Origin: Nodosilinea sp. FACHB-141
GTDB taxonomy: Bacteria > Cyanobacteriota > Cyanobacteriia > Phormidesmidales > Phormidesmidaceae
Assembly (NCBI RefSeq): GCF_014696135.1
Contig: NZ_JACJPP010000013.1
Location: 248,001 to 312,000 of the forward strand
Length of the DNA stretch: 64,000 nucleotides
Direction of reading: 5' to 3'
A program made the position numbers and the translations under genes. Under the pieces are notes generated by a model. The model had not been told where the DNA came from. It ran no database searches and was given only the letters and a program-made list of their open reading frames with translations. Shown here piece by piece: positions 35,937 to 50,136 of the stretch (the first letter of the stretch is position 1; every line of letters starts with the position of its first letter).

Positions 35937-36740
35937 ATGGAAACCGATTACATTGCCATTAGTTACGGGCAGCTGGCGCTGGCGGCTCTATTGATTGTGG
36001 TGAATGTGGGGCTGTCGGCGGTGTTGCGGCTCGGGCTGGGTCAGTCGCTGCTGATCGCTGCCCTGCGCATGGTGGTGCAGCTGTTGTTGATTGGCTTTGT
36101 GCTGGAGTGGCTGTTTACCCAAGACAATGCCCTGGTCATTTTGGCGATCGCGCTGGTGATGACGGCGATCGCGGGTATCGCCGCCGTCAACCGCACCCAG
36201 CGCCGCTTTGTGGGCGTCTACTGGCACAGCCTGCTGTCGGTGCTGGCCTCCTCCTCCTTGGTGACGGGCTTCGCGATGGTCGGCATTATTCGGGTACAGC
36301 CCTGGTACGACCCGCAGTACCTGATCCCGTTACTGGGCATGGTGCTGGGTAACACTCTCAACGGCATTTCCCTAGGGCTAGACCGCTTTATGGAAGGGCT
36401 GGTGACCCAGCGCGACCAGGTCGAGACCCTGCTGGCCTTGGGGGCCACCCGGTGGGAAGCCGCCCATCCCCAAGTTCGCAACGCCATTCGCGTCGGCATG
36501 ATACCCACCATCAACTCGATGATGGTGATGGGCTTGGTCAGCCTGCCGGGCATGATGACCGGCCAAATTTTGGCTGGAGCCAACCCCATCGACGCCGTGC
36601 GCTACCAGATCGTGATTATATTTATGATCGCCGCCGGAGCCGCCCTGGGGATCTTTGGCGTAGTGCTGCTGGCCTATCGCCGCCTGCTCAGCCCCGACCA
36701 CCAGCTCCGGCTCGACTATCTAGAAAAAGCTAAGCAGTAG
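35937..36740 (+). CDS. fetB: ABC transporter permease, FetB/UPF0014 family
   Basis: The 267-residue membrane protein has about seven spans. Family signatures are LLIAALRMVVQLLLIGFVL, PLLGMVLGNTLNGISLGLDR, the cytoplasmic coupling loop LLALGATRWEAAHPQVRNAI and SMMVMGLVSLPGMMTGQILA followed by GANPIDAVRYQ. FetB with FetA gives manganese/iron-related resistance to peroxide in E. coli; here iron export is inferred. ATG 35937. The partner ATPase gene is directly upstream. Confidence 0.88.
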   Translation: METDYIAISYGQLALAALLIVVNVGLSAVLRLGLGQSLLIAALRMVVQLLLIGFVLEWLFTQDNALVILAIALVMTAIAGIAAVNRTQRRFVGVYWHSLLSVLASSSLVTGFAMVGIIRVQPWYDPQYLIPLLGMVLGNTLNGISLGLDRFMEGLVTQRDQVETLLALGATRWEAAHPQVRNAIRVGMIPTINSMMVMGLVSLPGMMTGQILAGANPIDAVRYQIVIIFMIAAGAALGIFGVVLLAYRRLLSPDHQLRLDYLEKAKQ

Positions 36741-37443
36741 CCACTAAAGGCGATCGCCCAAGCAGTTTGTAGCCAAGGGCTTTGCCCGTTTCAAGGCAAA
36801 TGTGCAAAATCTGTTTGGCAAAACGGAAGGGTTTTACTTAGGGGATGTAGAGCGATCGCCTCCAAGCCGCGCTGGCCGGCTGCGATGCCCTGGTAATTCT
36901 CACCAACGCCATGCTCCACATGAAATTTGAGTTCGACAACGAGTGAAGCTCTGAAGGCAATCTTGAGGGTTACGCTCAAAATGTTGAGTTTCAAGCACCT
37001 CAGCCATATCTTTGAGACTAGTACGCCTCCACCCAACCCAAATTTTTTACAACGTTGACGACTTCCTACCGCGAGTTTGAGCGGCTCTGTGAGCGAGACT
37101 CGCCAAACGCGATTGGTAGTAATTAGAAGGATTTGTATAAAGAGGTAATTTAGGCTGCGATCGCCGCCTAATCCCCAACCCCCTAACCATACAGCCCTGC
37201 CACCAGCTGCTTTTTAGCTGTCGAACTCAGGTTTCAAATGAATATTTTCAGCGCTACCTAATCTCCTTACTAATGCGGCTACAGCCATAGCTCCAATTCT
37301 TAGAATTAGCTGAACAGAATTACCTAAATCTCCTGCGGGGTAGTTTAATAAACCTAGCCTATATCCAGAGGAGAAGCTGGCTCTGGGAAATCCGCTAATA
37401 CCGCGTGGGGCTAGTGCATCTATCAGTAACTTGCAGGTCTGCT
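36741..37443. other. 703-base intergenic stretch before the TPS operon
   Basis: The first 200 bases hold the decayed NAD(P)-binding gene fragment described separately. A hairpin-forming CTTGAGGG/CTCAAAATGTTGAG patch is near 36962. The A+T-rich remainder, up to about 37380, contains no convincing gene and probably holds the promoter of the TpsB-TIR-TpsA operon. Confidence 0.45.
36761..36945 (+). pseudogene. Fragment of an NAD(P)-binding (SDR-like) gene, frameshifted
   Basis: Translation from about 36760 gives KQFVAKGFARFKANVQNLFG followed by KTEGFYLGDV, matching [20 protein letters not shown] and [10 protein letters not shown] of the intact gene at 49360-50136. After GDV the DNA remains similar (GCGCTGGCCG, TGCGATGCCCT, ATTCTCACCA blocks), but a net 5-base loss within a doubled GATCGC motif breaks the frame, and similarity fades after ATGAAA at about 36923. 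Start and C-terminal two thirds are missing. It is a dead partial copy. Confidence 0.8.
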
Positions 37444-39099
37444 ATGGGGTTTCAAGGCTTAGGTGTTGCTGTCGTAGCCGGGCTAATTCAGAGTATTTTA
37501 GGCGCTGGATTGGCGACGGCGATCGCTCCAGAACCATCGGCTTTGGGGCCACCGGTCATCCGAGCTGAAGCTGGCGATCGCTTAGATTCAGCCCCCCTCG
37601 GTCCTGCCCCCGGAGCCGGTTCTTCTACCGCTCCCATTGAAGTGAAAACCATTTTGGTAGAGGGCAGCACAGTTTTTAGCCCTAGGGTTTTGGCCGAGGC
37701 CGTGGTCCCCTTTGAGGGGCGTGCCCTAACGCTAGAAGAACTCCAAGCCGCTGCCAATGCCGTTACCCAGCTGTATTTAAATGCTGGCTACATTACCTCT
37801 GAAGCGGTGCTGCCGCCCCAGCCGGTGCAGGAGGGAGTGGTCAGGCTTCAGGTGGTAGAGGGCGGGCTAGAGGAGATTCGCGTCGTGGGCACCGATCGCC
37901 TGGTGAGCTATGTGCAGCAGCGCATCGCCCTAGCGGGCACTCGCCCGCTGAACCAAAACCAGCTGGAAGGTCAGCTTCAGCTACTCCAGCGCGACCCTCT
38001 GTTTGACAATGTGGAAGCCAGCTTGCGTCAGGGCCAGGAGGCCGATGGCAGCATTCTGACGGTGCAGGTGACCGAAGCGCCTCCAGTCAGCGGCAGCTTG
38101 GCTATCGATACCCTGTCGCCCCGCAGCGTCGGTGAGTTTCGCACCGGCGGCACATTGCAGTACAACAACTTGGCCGGGTGGGGCGATCGCCTGGTGGCCT
38201 CGGCCTATCGCTCTACCACCGGGGGCTCCTACGCCTACGAGCTGTCTTATCTGGTGCCCCTCAACCCCAAGGAAGGCACTCTGCTGCTGCGAGCCACCCC
38301 CAGCAGCTACAGCATCACCGACCCCACCGACCCCACCTTTGGGCTGGAGCCCCGCGGCTCTACCGATAGCTATGAAATCCAGTACCGCCAGCCCCTAATT
38401 CGCACCCTCCGGGAAGAACTGGCGCTGTCTGCCGGGTTTCGCTATCGCAACGGCTCTACTCTGCTGGGCGGCGTAATTACGCCGCCCACGGTAACCAGTG
38501 TGGTTAGCTTTGGCCAAGACTACCTGCGGCGCGACCCTAGCGGCGCCTGGGGATTGCAGTCTCAGTTTCGCCTAGGTACGGGGTTATTTGGGGCCACCCT
38601 GTTGCCAGACCCCAGCCCCAGCGGCGAATTTTTTAGCTGGCAGGGGCAGGTCCAGCGCTTGCAAGTGCTGGGGCCCAACCACCAGCTGCTGGTGCGGGGG
38701 GCGGTGCAGCTTGCCTCCAGCAGCCTGCTGGGCTCAGAGCAGTTTTTTATTGGTGGGGCCCAGTCGGTGCGGGGCTACTACCAAAATGGGCGCTTTGGCG
38801 ACAACGGTCTGCGCCTGGCGGTAGAAGACCAAATCACGCTGCTGCGCGACGAGAATCAGTCGGCGCTGCTCAGCCTCAGCCCATTTTTGGACCTGGGCTA
38901 CGTGTGGGCCCATAACCGAGACTTTCGGGCTACTAACCAAAACTTTCTGCTGGGCACGGGGCTAGGGGTGATGATGACGCCCGTGGAGAACGTGGATGCC
39001 CGAGTTGATTTTGGCATTCCCCTAATTGCGCTGGACGAGCTGGCCAGCGATCGCCCCTCGGGCCTCAGAGTCTACTTCGATGTGCGCTACCGGTTTTAA
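37444..39099 (+). CDS. TpsB-type outer-membrane transporter (ShlB/FhaC/HecB family)
   Basis: A 551-residue two-partner secretion transporter. A signal-like N-terminus (GVAVVAGLIQSILGAGLATA) is followed by a linker, POTRA domain 1 (IEVKTILVEGSTVFSPRVLA; TQLYLNAGYITSEAVLPPQP), POTRA domain 2 (IRVVGTDRLVSYVQQRIALA) and a ShlB-type 16-strand barrel with the typical FIGGAQSVRGYYQNGRFGDNG motif (part) and an aromatic C-terminus (YFDVRYRF). GTG 37405 is a less likely start. It should export the TpsA encoded 4.4 kb downstream. Only two bases separate it from the TIR-CHASE2 gene. Confidence 0.93.
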   Translation: MGFQGLGVAVVAGLIQSILGAGLATAIAPEPSALGPPVIRAEAGDRLDSAPLGPAPGAGSSTAPIEVKTILVEGSTVFSPRVLAEAVVPFEGRALTLEELQAAANAVTQLYLNAGYITSEAVLPPQPVQEGVVRLQVVEGGLEEIRVVGTDRLVSYVQQRIALAGTRPLNQNQLEGQLQLLQRDPLFDNVEASLRQGQEADGSILTVQVTEAPPVSGSLAIDTLSPRSVGEFRTGGTLQYNNLAGWGDRLVASAYRSTTGGSYAYELSYLVPLNPKEGTLLLRATPSSYSITDPTDPTFGLEPRGSTDSYEIQYRQPLIRTLREELALSAGFRYRNGSTLLGGVITPPTVTSVVSFGQDYLRRDPSGAWGLQSQFRLGTGLFGATLLPDPSPSGEFFSWQGQVQRLQVLGPNHQLLVRGAVQLASSSLLGSEQFFIGGAQSVRGYYQNGRFGDNGLRLAVEDQITLLRDENQSALLSLSPFLDLGYVWAHNRDFRATNQNFLLGTGLGVMMTPVENVDARVDFGIPLIALDELASDRPSGLRVYFDVRYRF

Positions 39100-39101
39100 C
39101 T

Positions 39102-42100
39102 ATGCAGCTCCAAGATGCGTTTATTTCCTACGGGCGGCCCGACAGCAAAGACTTTGCGGTGGCGCTATGCCAGCGGCTAATTGACCTAGGCTACCGGGTT
39201 TGGCTGGATCAAACCGACATTCCCTTTGCGGTCAACTACCAGACCCACATCGACAGAAGCATTGAAAAATCCCACAACCTAATTTTTATCATCAGCCCTC
39301 ACTCGGTCAACTCGCCCTACTGCACCGAGGAGATTGAGCAGGCCCTGCGCTACAACAAGCGGATTATTCCCCTCATGCATGTGGGGCAGATTTCCCGCGA
39401 GACCTGGCAGCGGCGTCACCCAAAGGGTACTGAAGCCGACTGGATCGACTACCAGACCAAGGGGCTGCATTCTGCCAGCCGCAACATTCACCCCGGAATT
39501 GCCAAGCTCAACCGCATCAGCTGCCGCGACGGCCTAGATGACCCCAACCAGTACCTAGCCCAGCTAGTGCAAACCCTGGAAGACCGCAAGGTCCTTGTTC
39601 ACCAGCATACCCAGTACCTGATGGCGGCCCTGACCTGGGTGCAAAACCAGCGGCAGTCGCGCTATTTGCTGATTGGAGCAGTTCGGGAGGCCGCCGAAGC
39701 CTGGCTCAAACAGGCCTTTGAGGACGAGCCGCCCTTTTGCCAACCCACCAACCTCCACGGGGAGTTTGTTACCAGCAGCACCAAGTACGCCGATAGCCGT
39801 TTGGCGCAGGTCTTTCTCTGCTACGACGAAGCTGGGATTGCCGAGATTGATGGGGCAAAACCGTCCTCCCGTCCCGAGGATACGCCCGACTTGCCAGCAC
39901 CTTCGACCCAGCTCAGCAGCCGGTTGCGGTATTACCTGATGCGGGCCGGGTTTACCGTGTGGGATTGGCAGCAGGATTTAGCGACGGGCGATCGCATTCA
40001 AACCGCCATTGCCCAGGGTATAGAAGGGGCCGATAATTTTGTGTTTTTGCTCTCTGCCTACTCGGCGAGTTCAGCTCGCTGTTTAAGCGAACTCACCTAC
40101 GCCCTCAGCCTCAGCAAGCGAGTGATTCCGGTGCTAACCGAAGACCTGGCGTCGGAGGTACTGCCAGCAGTGCTACAGAATGTGCAACTGCTCGACATCC
40201 GCGCCCAGGAGTATTTAGGCGCTCAGATCGGCAGTCGCCAGCTAATCGCGACCCTGCGCCAAGATGCCGCCTACCTGCGCATTCACAAGCTGCTGCTGGT
40301 TGCCGCTCTCAAATGGGAGCGGCAGCGTCGCAACCCCAGCGTGTTGCTGCGGGGCGGAGAACTGCGCCAAGCCCAAAACTGGCTCAAAGCGGCCCAAACC
40401 CGACCCCGCTACGCCCCGGTTGAGATCCAAGCCCAGTTTGTCTCCGAGAGCCTGACTCAGCCTGCCACCCAGACCCTTGACGTTTTCTTGATTGCCGACC
40501 CCGCCGATTTAGACTTTGCCCGCCGCCTCAACGCCACCCTGCAACTGCAAAGCAAAAGCACCTGGTTTGACCAATCCATCCGGGTAGACACCAGCAATGA
40601 GCTGGCTATGGTCAACGAAGCACTAGAAAATGCCCAGAACTGTCTGGTGGTCGTGTCTGCCCACTGCCTAAAAAATCCGAGTTGCCTGGCCGATTTGGGC
40701 TACGCCAAGACTCTGCAAAAACGGATCGTTGCGGTATCGGATGGGTCAGTGGCTCGGGGTAACTTGCCCCCCACCCTAGTCGATTGCCCTTGGGTCAATT
40801 TTCAAGCCCACGACGGCGACTACTCCTCTAATTTTGGCGAGCTGTACCGCATTCTAGAGAGCGACGCCGTCCATGTGGATCGGCACACTCGACTGCTGGT
40901 GCGGGCTCTGGAGTGGGACAATGCTGGGCGCGAACCCAGCCTGCTGCTGCGGGGGCGAGCCCTTGACCAGGCCAATGACTGGCTGGCCCAGGCCGCCGGG
41001 AAAGTGCCGGTACCAAATCAGGCGCAGCTCGATTACCTGGTTGCCAGCCGCCAGCTCCCGTTCCGGAAGGTGAAGCTGCGCTCTGTGGGTCTAGTGAGCC
41101 TAGCTGTCACTCTGGTAGTAGCGGCCCTGCGGCTGGTCGGAGCCCTACAGCCGCTGGAACTCGCCACCTACGATGCCCTAATGCGCCGCCGCCCCAGCGA
41201 ACCTCAGGATTCGCACTTGCTGATTGTGACTGTGGACGAAGCCAGCGGCGACTGGCTGCGCGAGCAGGTGAAGCAGGGTCGCTACCCGCCGGGGTTGGGC
41301 ACCATTCCCGATCGGGCGCTAGCGGAGGTGCTGGCCACCCTCTCGGCCTTCAACCCAGCGGCGATTGGTCTGGATTTCTACCGCGATTTTGCTGCTGACC
41401 CTGCCCTGGCGGCCCAACTGCGCCAGAGCGACACCCTTTTTGGCATTTGCAAAGCCACCTACGAGGACACCGGGGTGGATCAGCCCCCGGAACTGCCCAG
41501 CCGCCAGGTTGGGTTCAACGATTTTGCGATCGATGCAAACAATTTCGTCCGCCGCCACTACCTGAAACATCAGGCCGACCCCCCCACCTGTGATACCGCT
41601 GAGGCCTTTAGCCTACGCCTGGTTCGCCAGTACCTAGAGGGGCAGGGCGTTCCCTTTACCGATCCCTTCCTGCCCAATGGGGGCATTCAAGACATGACCT
41701 TGGGCCCAGTGCGGGTGCCTCAGCTGTGGGCCGGTGGCATTCTGACCAGCCAGGCTGGGGGCTATACTCCCCTTCGGCCCGACACCTTCAACGGCTACCA
41801 GACGATGGTGAACTATCGCACCTACGCTGGCGACCCCAACCGGTTTGCCCCCCAGGTAACGTTCCAAGCGGTGATGATGGGGCAAGTTGACCCCGCTCTG
41901 GTGACCGGGCGAATTGTGCTGATCGGCTATAGAGACCTCACCGATCGCAATGCCGACTCGTACAATACGCCCCAAGGTGAACTGCCGGGAGTAGTGGTCC
42001 ACGGGCAGATGATTAGCCAGCTAGTGAATGCGGCTCTGGAGAATCGCGCCCTGATCTGGTGGTGGCCCGTCTGGGCCGAAACTCCGTGGATTGGCTTGTG

Positions 42101-42311
42101 GGCCTTGATCGGAGGTCTAGTAGCCCGTCAGATCGCACGACCCTGGGTACTCATCATGGGCGCAGCGGCGTCCATGACGCTGCTGGTAAGCCTTAGCTAC
42201 GCAGTCCTGGTCTTAGCCGGTGGCTGGCTACCGCTGATCCCGGCTCTGGTGGCGGGGTTTGGTACGGCAGGGCTGGTGGAATATTTGAGCCGTCGAGTTC
42301 GTAATCCGTAG
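39102..42311 (+). CDS. Triple TIR-like domain and CHASE2 membrane protein
   Basis: A 1,069-residue protein. TIR 1 (about 3-130) begins DAFISYGRPDSKDFAVALCQ and has SVNSPYCTEEI, putting Glu77 at the NADase catalytic position. TIR 2 (about 270-370) has SASSARCLSEL (Glu330). TIR 3 (about 457-580) has LKNPSCLADL, with Asp531 in place of Glu. Each is followed by a similar linker: LTWVQNQRQSRYLLIG, LKWERQRRNPSVLLRG, LEWDNAGREPSLLLRG. A span (about 660-680) leads into a CHASE2 extracytoplasmic domain (about 690-985; LATYDALMRRRPSE, VDEASGDWLRE, AIGLDFYRDF, GRIVLIGYRDLTDRNAD), then three C-terminal spans. No kinase, cyclase or STAND output is present. Confidence 0.9.
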   Translation: MQLQDAFISYGRPDSKDFAVALCQRLIDLGYRVWLDQTDIPFAVNYQTHIDRSIEKSHNLIFIISPHSVNSPYCTEEIEQALRYNKRIIPLMHVGQISRETWQRRHPKGTEADWIDYQTKGLHSASRNIHPGIAKLNRISCRDGLDDPNQYLAQLVQTLEDRKVLVHQHTQYLMAALTWVQNQRQSRYLLIGAVREAAEAWLKQAFEDEPPFCQPTNLHGEFVTSSTKYADSRLAQVFLCYDEAGIAEIDGAKPSSRPEDTPDLPAPSTQLSSRLRYYLMRAGFTVWDWQQDLATGDRIQTAIAQGIEGADNFVFLLSAYSASSARCLSELTYALSLSKRVIPVLTEDLASEVLPAVLQNVQLLDIRAQEYLGAQIGSRQLIATLRQDAAYLRIHKLLLVAALKWERQRRNPSVLLRGGELRQAQNWLKAAQTRPRYAPVEIQAQFVSESLTQPATQTLDVFLIADPADLDFARRLNATLQLQSKSTWFDQSIRVDTSNELAMVNEALENAQNCLVVVSAHCLKNPSCLADLGYAKTLQKRIVAVSDGSVARGNLPPTLVDCPWVNFQAHDGDYSSNFGELYRILESDAVHVDRHTRLLVRALEWDNAGREPSLLLRGRALDQANDWLAQAAGKVPVPNQAQLDYLVASRQLPFRKVKLRSVGLVSLAVTLVVAALRLVGALQPLELATYDALMRRRPSEPQDSHLLIVTVDEASGDWLREQVKQGRYPPGLGTIPDRALAEVLATLSAFNPAAIGLDFYRDFAADPALAAQLRQSDTLFGICKATYEDTGVDQPPELPSRQVGFNDFAIDANNFVRRHYLKHQADPPTCDTAEAFSLRLVRQYLEGQGVPFTDPFLPNGGIQDMTLGPVRVPQLWAGGILTSQAGGYTPLRPDTFNGYQTMVNYRTYAGDPNRFAPQVTFQAVMMGQVDPALVTGRIVLIGYRDLTDRNADSYNTPQGELPGVVVHGQMISQLVNAALENRALIWWWPVWAETPWIGLWALIGGLVARQIARPWVLIMGAAASMTLLVSLSYAVLVLAGGWLPLIPALVAGFGTAGLVEYLSRRVRNP

Positions 42312-42321
42312 TGAGAAAATG

Positions 42322-42366
42322 TTGGGTTTTGAATTCGGGCCTTCAACTCGAAACTCAACATTCAAA
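42322..42366. repeat. TGTTGGGTTTTGAATT hairpin in the TPS operon
   Basis: TGTTGGGTTTTGAATT pairs imperfectly with AACTCGAAACTCAACA across a short GC-rich loop. It resembles the element after lnt (34163-34215) and may attenuate transcription between the TIR-CHASE2 gene and the next. Confidence 0.6.
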
Positions 42367-42406
42367 GCTTCCCTTCCTCCTGAAACGTTACTCCTGATTT
42401 AAAGCA

Positions 42407-43426
42407 ATGACTTTCTTCCTGAACCATCCTGCTAAATCTGCCCTCAGACCCCGGCTCCTCCTGGCTGGGCTGCTGGGGATGGCGCTGCTGGTGCTGCCGA
42501 CCCCAGAGCTTGCCCAAGCCGGGGTGTTTGACTTTTTGGTGGGCGGGCGAGAAAACCGAGGGGGGCGGGCCTCTAACCGTCAGCAGGGCGGCGGCGTGCG
42601 TTCGGGTCGCCTAGTCGGTGGGTTTGATGCCACGGTGCCCTACATCATTACCCCTCGCAACACCTTTCAAACCAGCGATCAGTTCACCATTCGATGGAAT
42701 CCGGTAGCAGGAGCCGAGCGCTACACCGTACGGCTCTGGCAGTGGCAAGACGCCAACGGCGGGCGGGAGCGGGTGGTGTGGGAGACCACCACCCCTGAGT
42801 CATCCGTGCTCTACGAGGGCGATCCGCCCCTGGCCCCAGAGCTGTTCTACTCCGTGGAGGTAATTACCGACCAGGGAGTGTCTTCCGATTCAGACGCGGG
42901 CTGCGCAATCGCCGGGTTTGCGGTGCTGTTTCCTGAGACGCGATCGCGCCTTGAGGCCGATCTGGCCAGCCTTAACGACTTGACTCTCTCTCCCGAAGAG
43001 CAGGCCCTGGCCACTGCCCAGATCTACCTGGCCTACCAAATGCTCAATGCCGCCATCGATAGCCTGGCGGCCCAGGCTGCCCTGGTCCCGACTGCCACCC
43101 TGGCACTAGCCCTGGGCGACCTCTACAGCTTTGCCGGGCTCAACAGCCTGGCCGCCGAGCAATACACCCTGGCTCTAGAGCTGGCTGGTGACGACAACCT
43201 TTGGCAGGCAATCGCCTTGGAGGGGCTGGGGGAACTGGAGGTAGTGCAAAACAATTTGGCTGCTGCACTGCCCCAGCTGCGGCAGGCCCAGCTGAGCTAT
43301 GCCCTGGCCAACAACAGCACCAGGGCCAACCAGCTCAAACGCCGCATTGAGCTGCTCGAAAAAGCCCAGCAGCTCAATATTGCCCCCACCGACACCCCCG
43401 ACCTTTGTACCGCCCCCATCCAATAG
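42407..43426 (+). CDS. Secreted fibronectin-like/TPR protein of the TPS operon
   Basis: A 339-residue protein with a signal peptide (LLLAGLLGMALLVLPTPELAQA), a Gly/Arg-rich patch, a beta-sandwich-like segment (residues about 75-165: PYIITPRNTFQTSDQFTIRW, YTVRLWQWQD, LFYSVEVITDQGV) and a helical TPR-like half (about 195-320: LATAQIYLAYQMLNAAIDSL, LALGDLYSFAGLNSLAAEQY, LRQAQLSYALANNSTRANQL). Such secreted TPR proteins recur beside TPS or CHAT genes in cyanobacteria. It may help fold or display TpsA. Start ATG 42407; 44 bases before the TpsA start. Confidence 0.82.
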   Translation: MTFFLNHPAKSALRPRLLLAGLLGMALLVLPTPELAQAGVFDFLVGGRENRGGRASNRQQGGGVRSGRLVGGFDATVPYIITPRNTFQTSDQFTIRWNPVAGAERYTVRLWQWQDANGGRERVVWETTTPESSVLYEGDPPLAPELFYSVEVITDQGVSSDSDAGCAIAGFAVLFPETRSRLEADLASLNDLTLSPEEQALATAQIYLAYQMLNAAIDSLAAQAALVPTATLALALGDLYSFAGLNSLAAEQYTLALELAGDDNLWQAIALEGLGELEVVQNNLAAALPQLRQAQLSYALANNSTRANQLKRRIELLEKAQQLNIAPTDTPDLCTAPIQ

Positions 43427-43470
43427 GGCTACCCACCCCTCCACTCATCCACCCATCTACCACCGCCCCC

Positions 43471-46400
43471 ATGCGCTCTCTGCTTCTTCCCGCCCTGCTC
43501 TGGGCCACGCTCACCGTCCCCGCCTGGGCCCAGTCGATCATCCCTGCCGCCGATGGCACCGGCACCCTGGTCATGCCCGACGGCTCCACCTACCAAATTA
43601 CCGGCGGCACTCTGTCGGGGGATGGAGCTAACCTGTTCCACAGTTTTGAGCAGTTTGGCCTCACCGCCACCGAGGTAGCCAACTTTTTGGCCGACCCCAC
43701 GGTGCAAAACATTTTGGGCCGAGTAGTGGGGGGCAATGCCTCGGTAATTAATGGCCTGCTACAGGTCAGCGGCAGTAGCGCCAACCTCTACCTGCTCAAC
43801 CCGGCGGGTATTTTGTTTGGCCCCAATTCAGCGCTGAATCTGGATGGCTCGTTTGCCGCCACTACCGCCAGCGGCGTAGGGTTTGAGGAAAACTGGCTGC
43901 AGGCCATGGGCGACACCAACTATGCCGCCCTCACTGGCAACCCCACGGCCTTTGCCTTTGGCAACGAGCCCGGTGCCCTGATTAACCTGAGCAACCTGGC
44001 GGTGAACCCAGGGGAGGTGATCACCCTAGCCAGCGGCTCTGTGATTAACCTGGGCACCCTCACCGCCCCTGGTGGGCAAATCATTGTTTTGGCCGTACCG
44101 GGGGAAAACCGGGTCAGCATTCGCCCGGAAGGGGCTATTCTCAGCCTGGAGCTGGCTACCCTGCCAGAAGAGGCGCTACCCACCGCGCCCCTGCCCTTTT
44201 CGCCGCTGGATATTCCCTCGCTGCTGCGGGCGGGTGGGCCGGAGGTAGCCACAGGCATTATCACCAACCCCGACGGCACCGTTAGCCTAACGGGCTCAGC
44301 GACGACGTTGCCCACGTCTCCCGGCACGGCCCTGGTATCGGGAACATTAGACGTGGCGGGGGAAACGGGCGGTGAAGTGCAGGTTTTGGGCGATCGCATC
44401 GCCGTCACCGCCGCCACTATCGATGCTTCGGGTACCCAGGGCGGCGGCACGGTGCTGGTAGGGGGCGACTACCAGGGGAGTGGCACGACTCCGACCAGCG
44501 ATCGCACCTACGTCGATGCCACTTCCACCCTCACGGCCGATGCCTTAGCAACCGGCGACGGCGGCGAGGTGATTGTTTGGGCCGACCAGGGCACCCAGTT
44601 CGACGGCACCATTACCGCACACGGCGGGGCAGCGGCGGGCGATGGCGGCCTTGTGGAAGTGTCTGGGCGCGACACTCTGGCCTTTAAAGGCACGGTGGAT
44701 GTCAGCACCGCCCAGGGTGAGTGGGGCACCCTGCTGCTCGACCCCACCAACATCACCATTAGTGCCGCCGTCAGCAGCCCTGGAGTTGAAGATCCTGGCG
44801 GTCTGCCCGATATTCTGGCGACAGATTTACCCGGGGACGTGACGATCAACGCCACCCTCCTACAAAACCAGACAGGCAACATCATTTTAGAAGCCACCGA
44901 CAACATCACCATCGACAATGGCCTGTCGCTAAACTTTGTGCCCGGTGGCTCGATCACCTTTACCGCTGATACCAATATTGACGGAGTAGGCGATTTCACG
45001 ATGGATCAGACCCAAGCTATCAATGCCCAAGGAACTGCTGGGGCAGACGGCAGGGATGTAACCATTACAGCGGTGAACATTACCACTGGGGCGGTCAATA
45101 CCACTTCGGCGGGGGGCACGGCAGGGAATGTTGACCTTACAGCGACCAACAGCGGGGGGATCTCGGCGGGCAATATTGTTGCGGGCTCAGTGTTCGCTAT
45201 CTCCAATGGGGCGACACCCTTTAACTTCGGTGACATATCTGCCACTAATTCAATTCTTCTAGGCAAACCGACCGGCAGCCTAATTATAGGCAATCTATCG
45301 GCAACCACTGGCAACATTGGAGTGGGAACTACTGGTGGCGGAGGCATTAACGTCGATATTGGCAATGCCACCGCTGGTACATCAATCAACTTAGACGCTG
45401 GGATTGGTGGCACTATTACCACCGGCGATCTCTCTGCTGGCACTCAAGTCAATGCCTCTACTGGGGTAGGTGGTAACCTGACTACCGGTGCGATCTCCTC
45501 AGGGCCAGGGGTGTCTGGCCTCAGCATCAACCTTGAGGCCGATGAAATAGATTTCTTGGGTGGAGTCGGTACTATACGAGCCCCAGGCCAATTGCTGATT
45601 CAAACGGCTGACCTGAGCCAAGCTATTGCAGTCGGTGGCGCTGCCGATAGTGGCGCTGGAACGTTAGATCTTACAGCTACAGACCTGGCTGCCTTCGCCA
45701 ACGGCTTTAGCAGCATCACCATTGGACGACCAGACAACGCCGGGGACATCAACCTCGCTGGCGATGTTACCTTTAGCGACCCGACTACCCTGCAAACCCT
45801 GGGCAGCATTGATACTACAGGTACTATGCTCAATGGCGTTGATGATGCCAGCCTAAACCTATTGGCGGGGTCAGGGGTAGATATTGGCGAGATCAATACA
45901 GTGGGCAGGTCGATCGTCATTGAGGGCGATCGCATTGGCAATAGTGAAGGCAGTGTGACAGTGGGTCAACCCATCACCACAGGCGGAGGAGATATCACCA
46001 TCACCGGGGCCAGCACCGGGTTTACCATTTTTAGCACTGGTCGTGCCATTTTTATCGACAGCCAGGGCGCCATCAATAGCCAGGGAGGAAACATTTCCCT
46101 CACGGGCACCACCACCACGGCGGCTGAAGGAATTATCAGCTTTGCGCCCATCACTTCTGGCGGTGGGGATATTGTCTTGACGGGTAGTAGTTTTGGTGGC
46201 GGTGACGGAGTTAACCTGAGCTTTCTGACGAATAGCGTTGACTCTGGAGGTGGAGATATCACCATCACCGGCACCGGACTCAATACTGGCATTACTATCT
46301 CTAGCGGCGTTACGGTTGCAGCTGGGACGGGGAATGTTACTCTAAACGCTAATGACCTCTGGTTGGAAGGACTGATTAGCGGCAGCGGCAGTCTACAAAT

Positions 46401-49275
46401 TCAGCTTCTGACGCCTTCCTTTCCCATTACTCTGGGCGGCACAGGTGACCCCATTAGAACAACATTCTTGAACCAGAATGAGATTAACCAGATAGGCAAC
46501 GGCTTTAGCAATCGCACCATTGGGCAGGTGGGCAATACTGGCCCCATTACCCTAGAGTCCTTTACCCTCAGCAGCCCCCTCACCATTGTAGGCGGTGTAC
46601 TAACTGGGCCAGGCCAAGATACAGCCTTTACTACTGCTCCAGACAGCAGCCTGGAGGTTGGGGGCTTTGGGGCAACTCTGCGCCTGCTCAACCCCACCGA
46701 GATCAGAGGTGGCAGCGGTGTGGCTAACACTGTGCTGGGCGGCGACGGCGACGACACCTTTACCGTCATTGGTGATGGCACCGCCCAGGTTGGAAATATT
46801 ACCTTCTCGAACATCAGCGCCTTCGACGGCGGTGCAGGCTCTGACACACTAGCGGGCACCGGTGCCAATGACTACTTTGTGGTGAATAGCAGCAACGGCG
46901 GCTACACCCTGAATTCTAGTTTTCTTCAGGATATTAACTTTACTAACGTTGAAGCGATCGCCGCTGGGGGCGGGGCGCAGGACGTAGTTGAACTGGTGAG
47001 TGTACCCCTAGATCTGGCCGTCAGCGGCGACACGCTGTTCGTGACGAGTCAGGGCAGCGTAACGATTAATGCCAACGTGACCACTCCCGGCGATTTGATC
47101 GTATCTGCCAGCGCAGGCGATGTTGCTCAAACCGGTGGCCAGGTGACGGTGGGGGGCAGTACTAGCCTAGATGCCCCTGGCAATATTACCCTCGACGGCA
47201 GCAACGATTTTAATGCTGTGACCGTCACCAGCGGCCAGAATGTTACCCTGCGCGATCGCAACAGCCTCCAGCTCAACGAGCTGGTGTTTTCGGGCGGGTT
47301 GCAGGTAACGGCGGGCGGTAACCTCGCCGCCACAACCAACCTACAGCCCGGGAGCAGTACGTCGCCCATGGGCCTGTTCGCTACCGACAGTAGCCTGTTC
47401 GCTGCCGATAGCAGTATTCTCGCTACCGACAGTTTGGCAGGCATTAGCCTAACCAGTGGTGGCAGCCTGACTACCGCCAATATCGTCACCTTCGGCGGCC
47501 CCATCGCTCTCCAAGCTGGCGGAGCGATCACTAGCGGCAACCTCGATAGCAGCGGCAGCAATGGTGGCGCTGTGCGCTTGCAGGCGGGCGATTCCATTCA
47601 GGTTAATAGCATTAACGCCCAGGGCACCACCAGCGGCGGCACGATTACCGCCCTTACCCCCAGTACTTTCCGGGTTGTGGGCAGTTTTACCGACCAAAAC
47701 GCGGTGACCGCCAGCCTCTCCACTGTGGGGGGCAGCCAGGGAGGTGAAATTCTGCTGGGCTATGGGGCTTCTACCTTTATCCTGGGCGATCCCAGCTTTA
47801 ACGGCACCCTGGCGGCAATCACCACGGGCGATGTCACCCTGCTGCCCGATGTGGCTAACCCCATTCTGGGCAGCCGCATTTTTGGCCGCGGTCTGCCCGG
47901 TCAAATACAGTTCATTTCCTTTGGCGACATTCCGGTTGAGATCGAGCCCCCGCCTGATGAAATTGATCCCGTCCCCGATCCCCAGCGCGACCTGGAGACT
48001 ATCGAAGAGAATGCCCCAGTATTCTTAACCAGTGCCGGAGACGTACTGGGACAAGAGCAGCTCAGCGAGGCCGAAGACTCGGCCAGTGGCGATTTTGCGG
48101 GCTACTTCGGCGATCTGATTAAATCGCCGCGATCGGTCAACCTTCAGCAGGCAAGGGCCACCCTGCGCGACATTGCGGCCCAGACGGGGGAAATGCCTGC
48201 GTTTATGTACGTGCGGCTGAACCGCGACGCTAAACCGGGGGAGGGAGGCGTTGAGCTGCTGTTGATAACCGCTGAGGGTGAACCCAGCCAGGTCAGGGTG
48301 CTCAACACCACTGCCGAGGAAGTGCTCAAAACCCAGGAGCAGCTGCGACGGCAGTTGACCAACCCCAGCTTGACCAACAACACCGCTTACTTAACGGCGG
48401 CCCAGCAGCTCTACGGTTGGCTAATCGCCCCCATCGAAGCGGAGCTGAAAGCGGTTGGAGTGACCAATATCGGGTTTGTCATGGATGCGGGTCTGCGCAC
48501 CCTGCCTCTGGCGGCCCTCCACAATGGGGAGCGGTTTTTAATTGAAGACTACAGCCTGGGCCTGATTCCCAGCCTGGGGCTGATCGACCCTACCTACGTT
48601 GACCTCAATCGGCAAAACTCAACGCTGCTGGTGTCGGGGGCGTCGCAGTTTATCAACCAGCCGCCGCTGCTGGCCGCCGAGGTGGAAATGCAGACTCTGC
48701 AGTCTCTCTGGCCTAGTACTAAGGTGGCCGAAACCCGCTTTACGGTGAGCAATCTTCAGCGCGATCGCCGCCAAGCCCAAATTATTCACATGGCCACCCA
48801 TGCTCAGTTTCTGCGCGGCGCTCCCAATAATTCTTACCTACAGTTCTTCGATAGCCGCCTGCGCCTTAACCAGGTGCCCGAGCTGGGCTGGTTTGACCCC
48901 CAGGTGGAGCTAGTTACTCTCAGCGCCTGCCAAACCGCCATAGGCAATGCCGATGCCGAACTGGGCTTTGCCGGGTTTGCTCTGCTGGCCGGAGCTAAAT
49001 CGGCCTTGGCCAGTCTGTGGAAAGTGAACGACGAAGCCACCGCTGGACTGATGATCACGTTTTATCAATCCCTTGACCAAGAGGCGATTAAGGCAGAAGC
49101 CCTGCGCGAGGCCCAGCTGGCAATGGTGCGCGGCCAGGTTTATACCGAAAATGGCCAGCTGATCTGGCCTAGTGGGTCTTTGGCCCTGCCCCCCGACCTG
49201 GTGATAGACGGCCGACAAGACCTGAGTCATCCTTTCTACTGGGCAGCCTTTACCATGGTAGGCAGCCCGTGGTAG
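43471..49275 (+). CDS. TpsA exoprotein with C-terminal CHAT protease domain
   Basis: A 1,934-residue secreted protein from ATG 43471: signal peptide (LLLPALLWATLTVPAWAQ), filamentous-haemagglutinin TPS domain (about 20-160, with YLLNPAGILFGPNSALNLDG and SFAATTA), a long parallel beta-helix of Gly/Thr/Asn-rich repeats (about 170-1490), an acidic Pro-rich linker (EIEPPPDEIDPVPDPQRD) and a CHAT domain (about 1540-1930). CHAT landmarks are complete: YGWLIAPIEAELKAVGV, DAGLRTLPLAALHNG, QIIHMATHAQF (His1777) and LVTLSACQTAIGNAD (Cys1820). The frame extends upstream to TTG 43405 inside the previous gene; this is unlikely. It is the cognate cargo of the operon's TpsB. Confidence 0.93.
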   Translation: MRSLLLPALLWATLTVPAWAQSIIPAADGTGTLVMPDGSTYQITGGTLSGDGANLFHSFEQFGLTATEVANFLADPTVQNILGRVVGGNASVINGLLQVSGSSANLYLLNPAGILFGPNSALNLDGSFAATTASGVGFEENWLQAMGDTNYAALTGNPTAFAFGNEPGALINLSNLAVNPGEVITLASGSVINLGTLTAPGGQIIVLAVPGENRVSIRPEGAILSLELATLPEEALPTAPLPFSPLDIPSLLRAGGPEVATGIITNPDGTVSLTGSATTLPTSPGTALVSGTLDVAGETGGEVQVLGDRIAVTAATIDASGTQGGGTVLVGGDYQGSGTTPTSDRTYVDATSTLTADALATGDGGEVIVWADQGTQFDGTITAHGGAAAGDGGLVEVSGRDTLAFKGTVDVSTAQGEWGTLLLDPTNITISAAVSSPGVEDPGGLPDILATDLPGDVTINATLLQNQTGNIILEATDNITIDNGLSLNFVPGGSITFTADTNIDGVGDFTMDQTQAINAQGTAGADGRDVTITAVNITTGAVNTTSAGGTAGNVDLTATNSGGISAGNIVAGSVFAISNGATPFNFGDISATNSILLGKPTGSLIIGNLSATTGNIGVGTTGGGGINVDIGNATAGTSINLDAGIGGTITTGDLSAGTQVNASTGVGGNLTTGAISSGPGVSGLSINLEADEIDFLGGVGTIRAPGQLLIQTADLSQAIAVGGAADSGAGTLDLTATDLAAFANGFSSITIGRPDNAGDINLAGDVTFSDPTTLQTLGSIDTTGTMLNGVDDASLNLLAGSGVDIGEINTVGRSIVIEGDRIGNSEGSVTVGQPITTGGGDITITGASTGFTIFSTGRAIFIDSQGAINSQGGNISLTGTTTTAAEGIISFAPITSGGGDIVLTGSSFGGGDGVNLSFLTNSVDSGGGDITITGTGLNTGITISSGVTVAAGTGNVTLNANDLWLEGLISGSGSLQIQLLTPSFPITLGGTGDPIRTTFLNQNEINQIGNGFSNRTIGQVGNTGPITLESFTLSSPLTIVGGVLTGPGQDTAFTTAPDSSLEVGGFGATLRLLNPTEIRGGSGVANTVLGGDGDDTFTVIGDGTAQVGNITFSNISAFDGGAGSDTLAGTGANDYFVVNSSNGGYTLNSSFLQDINFTNVEAIAAGGGAQDVVELVSVPLDLAVSGDTLFVTSQGSVTINANVTTPGDLIVSASAGDVAQTGGQVTVGGSTSLDAPGNITLDGSNDFNAVTVTSGQNVTLRDRNSLQLNELVFSGGLQVTAGGNLAATTNLQPGSSTSPMGLFATDSSLFAADSSILATDSLAGISLTSGGSLTTANIVTFGGPIALQAGGAITSGNLDSSGSNGGAVRLQAGDSIQVNSINAQGTTSGGTITALTPSTFRVVGSFTDQNAVTASLSTVGGSQGGEILLGYGASTFILGDPSFNGTLAAITTGDVTLLPDVANPILGSRIFGRGLPGQIQFISFGDIPVEIEPPPDEIDPVPDPQRDLETIEENAPVFLTSAGDVLGQEQLSEAEDSASGDFAGYFGDLIKSPRSVNLQQARATLRDIAAQTGEMPAFMYVRLNRDAKPGEGGVELLLITAEGEPSQVRVLNTTAEEVLKTQEQLRRQLTNPSLTNNTAYLTAAQQLYGWLIAPIEAELKAVGVTNIGFVMDAGLRTLPLAALHNGERFLIEDYSLGLIPSLGLIDPTYVDLNRQNSTLLVSGASQFINQPPLLAAEVEMQTLQSLWPSTKVAETRFTVSNLQRDRRQAQIIHMATHAQFLRGAPNNSYLQFFDSRLRLNQVPELGWFDPQVELVTLSACQTAIGNADAELGFAGFALLAGAKSALASLWKVNDEATAGLMITFYQSLDQEAIKAEALREAQLAMVRGQVYTENGQLIWPSGSLALPPDLVIDGRQDLSHPFYWAAFTMVGSPW

Positions 49276-49296
49276 ACAACCCTTGATAAACAATAG

Positions 49297-50136
<840 letters not shown>

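Follow-up and report, generated by a model that had tools for sequence, protein, structure and literature searches.

Do four neighbouring genes that encode a two-partner secretion (TPS) exporter, a TIR-CHASE2 membrane protein, a secreted TPR protein and an exoprotein ending in a CHAT protease belong together, and if so, what might they do? We addressed this question for a locus in a 5.9 Mb cyanobacterial genome, within a window of 64,000 nucleotides (positions 248001-312000 of its contig). The initial annotation knew of no described system that joins all four parts. Our search, which covered open-access literature, likewise found no published description.

Gene layout and inheritance of the block

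All four genes are intact and lie on the plus strand in the order TpsB, TIRx3-CHASE2, gene 3 and TpsA-CHAT (Table 1). They are separated by gaps of 2, 95 and 44 bases, as initially described; the gap of 44 bases assumes the TpsA ATG at 43471, and a TTG further upstream would overlap gene 3. An alternative GTG start of TpsB is possible at 37405. Promoter and terminator scans returned signals at chance level only. The 95-base gap before gene 3 contains a 15-bp inverted repeat (42318-42362). This element is nearly unique within the genome, and one of its arms recurs upstream of the operon (36980-36994). The hairpin at 42318-42362 folded no better than shuffled sequences (z -0.03).

Table 1 Positions of the genes, domains and insertion features in the window.
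Feature	Position	Strand	Details
Left flank, UPF0014 (FetB-type) permease gene	35937..36740	+	
Inserted block, about 12.6 kb	36760..49356		Absent from five same-genus genomes
Broken partial SDR copy, left end of block	36761..36925	+	DNA and protein match
TpsB, Omp85-family outer-membrane exporter	37444..39099	+	POTRA_2 and ShlB Pfam matches
TIRx3-CHASE2 inner-membrane receptor (gene 2), 1069 aa	39102..42311	+	Pfam, hydropathy, catalytic-site alignment
TIR1	39102..39461	+	Glu77 kept in 16/16 relatives
TIR2	39909..40271	+	Glu330 kept in 15/16 relatives
TIR3, degenerate	40467..40781	+	Asp531 replaces Glu; FISY-type motif lost in this lineage
CHASE2 domain	41106..42119	+	PF05226, 2.7e-54
Gene 3, exported beta-strand domain and TPR protein, DUF928 slot	42407..43426	+	
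TpsA-CHAT exoprotein, 1934 aa, with signal peptide	43471..49275	+	
TPS secretion domain, NPXG-type motif NPAGI	43570..44136	+	PF05860, 1.4e-37
CHAT cysteine protease domain	48397..49266	+	PF12770, 7.3e-64; alignment
Catalytic dyad codons	48799..48930	+	His1777 (48799-48801), Cys1820 (48928-48930)
Right flank, NAD(P)-binding SDR gene	49360..50136	+	

The genes sit in an inserted block. The site is empty in five genomes of the same genus (L146-L149, L153): the permease and SDR genes are adjacent, their proteins are 86-97% identical to the flank proteins of the window, and recA comes next. At the DNA level, the partial SDR copy at the block's left end is 77-84% identical to an internal stretch of the SDR gene in relatives, and its protein match is 6e-12. 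The left junction adjoins a GGCGATCGCC palindrome, a HIP1-type sequence that is abundant in the window (18 occurrences, 0.14 expected). No GC shift was seen in the composition of the block.

The full order of the four genes also occurs in a same-genus genome (G243, L051) at another site, with gaps of 2, 112 and 200 bases. The corresponding proteins are 66% (TpsB), 62% (TIRx3-CHASE2), 64% (gene 3) and 58% (TpsA-CHAT) identical to those of the window. Two MAG contigs carry the first three (L016) and the first two (L017) genes of the operon before the contig or the stored stretch ends. The closest named relatives of the gene 2 protein come from MAGs labelled Leptolyngbya sp. (82% identity) and 'Cyanobacteria bacterium' (78%). 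Together with the abundant HIP1-type palindrome, these matches mark the host as a Leptolyngbya-like cyanobacterium. In both G243 and L017 the operon has neither the permease gene nor the SDR gene nearby, so the block is present in at least three contexts. Related genomes, in which the genes could have proved to be always apart, instead repeat the order and show the block moving whole. Judged by this co-inheritance, the four genes form one functional unit, in agreement with the initial annotation.

Domains, export signals and catalytic residues

The first and last genes encode a recognizable TPS pair. TpsB matches POTRA_2 (2.7e-22) and ShlB (7.8e-29), as expected of a two-partner exporter, and TpsA combines a signal peptide with an N-terminal TPS domain, as expected of its exoprotein. 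PDB relatives of the TPS domain include EtpA, a TPS adhesin, and HxuA. The CHAT profile found no chain match among PDB sequences. Its His/Cys dyad is that of a CHAT protease and is invariant in 8/8 aligned sequences; among 30 fused TpsA-CHAT relatives, the Cys motif and the His motif were each present in 27. Cys1820 is the sole cysteine among the 1934 residues of the exoprotein, and the active-site Cys is also the only cysteine in 10 of the 30 fused relatives. These exported proteins contain little cysteine (about 0.2-0.3%), and the retention of this single residue argues that catalysis is under selection in the exported protein.

Of 194 genomes sampled from the class, 107 encode a CHAT domain close to that of the window. 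We examined 20 loci from these genomes, picked mainly for their long frames, and in each of them one reading frame runs from TPS to CHAT, which bears out the original reading of a CHAT fused behind an export domain. Such fusions are spread across the whole class. Of 18 standalone CHATs encoded near TPS genes, 14 have a hydrophobic N-terminus (simple hydropathy criterion), consistent with export.

The gene 2 protein matches TIR_2 in three stretches (6e-52), in addition to CHASE2. Its TIR units are followed by a clear membrane segment (residues 664-682), the CHASE2 domain and a hydrophobic C-terminal membrane region, whose segments were assigned by simple hydropathy. This is the architecture of a CHASE2 receptor, and the predicted topology fits the proposed placement of CHASE2 outside and TIR inside. 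Sequence comparison with the PDB gives bacterial TIR proteins as relatives of the TIR units, among them AbTIR, which is named as an NAD hydrolase. TIR1 and TIR2 have both the fold and the catalytic Glu, and TIR activity is predicted from this one Glu position. TIR3 lacks it, with Asp in the window and its two nearest relatives and Gln in G243. An AlphaFold model of the TIR1 region alone (pLDDT 36) was discarded. The three-TIR unit, as read from sequence, is fused to WD40-like repeats and not to CHASE2 in many cyanobacteria (L039-L050), and a three-TIR relative is also present on a Bernardetia plasmid.

Gene 3 encodes a Sec-type signal peptide ending in AQA, an N-terminal Gly/Arg-rich stretch, a beta-strand domain and C-terminal TPRs. 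The TPRs are weak in the single sequence and clear in the family profile. An AlphaFold model (pLDDT 56) supports only beta strands and TPR helices, and a PDB fold search gave generic TPR matches. The protein had no match to Pfam DUF928 above the cut-off. Its family profile matched the DUF928 profile with 90% probability (E 1.9e-6), which is insufficient for DUF928 membership. All 11 of the tested proteins that occupy the same slot in other loci are DUF928. Gene 3 may be distantly related to DUF928. The secreted, TPR-like character noted at the outset holds, and the description is corrected by placing the gene in the DUF928 slot. A relative of gene 3 lies between two CHAT genes without TPS genes elsewhere in this genome (L020:9928-19369, C29).

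A wider cyanobacterial pattern around TpsB and CHASE2

Relatives of the TIR-CHASE2 protein were found across the cyanobacterial class. Among 20 such loci, a DUF928-slot gene lies beside the receptor gene in 18, a TPS exoprotein or TpsB in 15 and a fused TpsA-CHAT in 6, all lower bounds because several of the stretches are short contigs. We also profiled 40 TpsB neighbourhoods from the same family, a list that was score-ranked and hand-picked for long contigs and is not a strictly random sample. CHASE2 was present in 13, DUF928 in 15 and CHAT in 16 of these, compared with 0, 1 and 0 of 20 control windows. For CHASE2 near TpsB, the binomial P is about 2e-11 (background 0.027 per window) and the Fisher P is 0.003. 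On Pseudanabaena and Planktothrix plasmids, annotated TpsB, CHASE2, TpsA, CHAT and DUF928 genes are found together.

The CHASE2 proteins beside TPS genes carry diverse outputs: TIR (x1, x3 or x5), Ser/Thr kinase, histidine kinase, trypsin plus cyclase, GGDEF-EAL and CHAT. By these domain assignments, TIR can be exchanged for other outputs within a broader cyanobacterial CHASE2/DUF928/TPS/CHAT theme, a point that the initial annotation had missed. The parts can also work apart, as many TpsA-CHAT genes have neither partner nearby (CHASE2 near in 7 and TpsB near in 3 of 20 TpsA-CHAT stretches). This genome encodes eight CHASE2 proteins, five of them outside TPS loci.

Several further arrangements were observed. 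A superlocus in this genome (L012, L013, L018; C2:112-175 kb) has five genes for CHAT proteins, two for CHASE2 proteins and two for TPS proteins, as well as the other TpsB. It also includes a CHASE2-histidine kinase, an orphan kinase/response-regulator pair and a CHAT-CHASE2 fusion. Several same-genus genomes show a comparable order (L087, L088, L094, L096, L098). A TPS exoprotein of this second locus is apparently split into two frames of 1067 and 317 aa (L012:11782-15980), perhaps by a frameshift. Elsewhere, a gene for a CHASE2 protein with trypsin-like and cyclase domains is followed by DUF928 and TpsA-CHAT genes (L157:632-3145). CHASE2-GGDEF-EAL genes that adjoin TpsA-CHAT genes (L156, L163) suggest c-di-GMP links in other lineages.

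A putative trans-envelope receptor and its alternatives

Each part of the unit resembles a known system. As in two-partner secretion of the FhaB/FhaC and HMW types, TpsB has POTRA domains and a ShlB barrel, and TpsA has a signal peptide and an NPXG-type TPS domain; here, however, the protease lies within TpsA itself, and a receptor and a periplasmic partner are encoded in the operon. According to a review of TPS systems, maturation protease genes seem to lie outside TPS operons (PMC5422565). In FhaB, the C-terminus/prodomain stays periplasmic for regulated proteolysis (PMC8263021), and LapG cleaves the periplasmic tail of CdrA (PMC5422565). The CdrA/LapG/LapD system shares with the operon a TPS exoprotein, a cysteine protease acting in the periplasm (here predicted) and an inner-membrane signalling protein, but in the operon the protease is a CHAT in cis and the receptor is a CHASE2 protein with TIR. 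CHASE2 flanked by membrane segments and joined to a variable cytoplasmic output is common to CyaD/CyaK, cyanobacterial Ser/Thr kinases and the CHASE2-metacaspase of Trichodesmium (PMC13001267, PMC2176072, PMC3501461). The Sinorhizobium cyclases CyaD/CyaK act with the outer-membrane barrel NsrA (PMC13001267). In our case the barrel encoded next to CHASE2 exports an exoprotein of its own by the TPS route, and the output consists of three tandem TIR units. The Nostoc NOSP7 cluster likewise has CHASE2 adjoining DUF928, with WD40 proteins; TPS or CHAT is not reported there (PMC5587647).

The extracytoplasmic parts of these loci are constant and the cytoplasmic outputs varied, the pattern expected if a receptor responds to an envelope event common to all of them. 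Together with the NsrA, FhaB and LapG-CdrA precedents, this favours outside-in sensing with CHAT processing. Our best explanation, to which we give slightly less than even odds, is two-partner secretion in which the exoprotein carries its own protease and an inner-membrane receptor dedicated to the system senses the surface. Beyond a unit of exported protease-exoprotein plus receptor, we infer the following steps. TpsB would export TpsA, and the CHAT domain would stay in the periplasm or on the cell surface. Once the exoprotein is engaged, stalled or disturbed, CHAT would process it or a nearby envelope protein. The CHASE2 receptor would read that state, with the periplasmic TPR protein (gene 3) as a possible adaptor. 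TIR1 and TIR2 would then convert the state into a cytoplasmic output, either NAD cleavage or a nucleotide signal, and TIR3 may serve as a scaffold.

It is very improbable that the genes are chance neighbours or two unrelated pairs. TpsA-CHAT genes are frequently found without CHASE2 nearby, but the conserved order, the block insertion and the enrichment around TpsB speak against this, and both TpsB genes of this genome adjoin CHASE2 and CHAT genes. A chance neighbourhood is refuted by the complete order kept in G243 at a different site. Contact-dependent inhibition (CDI), in which the CHAT tail of TpsA would be a toxin sent into adjacent cells, is suggested by the TPS export and C-terminal enzyme domain shared with CdiA, and the initial annotation had raised the comparison. 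CDI tips are hypervariable. In contrast, the CHAT tail is as conserved among relatives as the TPS domain (53-71% and 49-74% identity; 31-53% for the middle), and TpsA-CHAT contains no VENN, ELYN or VDNN motif. No immunity gene was found after TpsA-CHAT: the next gene, 84 bases downstream, is the SDR gene of the insertion site, and no conserved small ORF follows in relatives. The conserved tail and the missing motif and immunity gene make a CDI toxin tip a poor prospect.

The direction of signalling could be reversed, with TIR-CHASE2 reporting a cytoplasmic state and switching CHAT so that the exoprotein is released or retained, as LapD/LapG do for CdrA. The combination of inner-membrane receptor, cysteine protease and TPS exoprotein follows LapD-LapG-CdrA logic (PMC5422565), and in two cases TpsA-CHAT genes adjoin CHASE2-GGDEF-EAL genes. 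We nevertheless consider inside-out control unlikely: outputs such as TIR, Ser/Thr or histidine kinase and cyclase make signals and do not sense second messengers, CHASE2 is sensory in the one tested case found (PMC13001267), and Pfam gave no match to a LapG-type protease, c-di-GMP receptor or GGDEF/EAL domain in the four operon proteins. The unit might also guard the envelope, sensing phage adsorption or outer-membrane damage at TpsA/CHASE2 and killing or arresting the cell through NAD depletion by the TIRs. The catalytic Glu retained in TIR1 and TIR2, the partial resemblance that PADLOC finds between the TIR part and Thoeris and TIR-pAgo proteins, the presence of the block in some genomes and its absence from others, and the metacaspase-CHASE2 precedent in Trichodesmium (PMC3501461) all point this way. 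However, TpsB, gene 3 and TpsA had no PADLOC matches, and among the four operon proteins no listed defence-system partner stands beside the TIR gene. The outputs of relatives include ordinary signalling enzymes, and an adhesin-like exporter would be an unusual defence component. A role in suicide or anti-phage defence is also unlikely.

We return to outside-in surface sensing and its possible reach. In a reading that we hold a shade more cautiously, the operon may belong to a class-wide cyanobacterial trans-envelope system, in which a TPS exoprotein with an exported caspase-like protease feeds a CHASE2/DUF928 receptor with interchangeable output. The TIR version would be an NAD-based or nucleotide surface-sensing receptor and not primarily a phage defence. 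If this is true, two-partner secretion gains a protease of its own and an inner-membrane receptor devoted to it, a caspase-like (CHAT) protease works outside the cytoplasm, and bacterial TIR domains serve as a receptor output. As CHATs close to the exoprotein tail occur in 107 of the 194 genomes sampled and the combination extends across families, one model strain could test a large uncharacterised set of genes.
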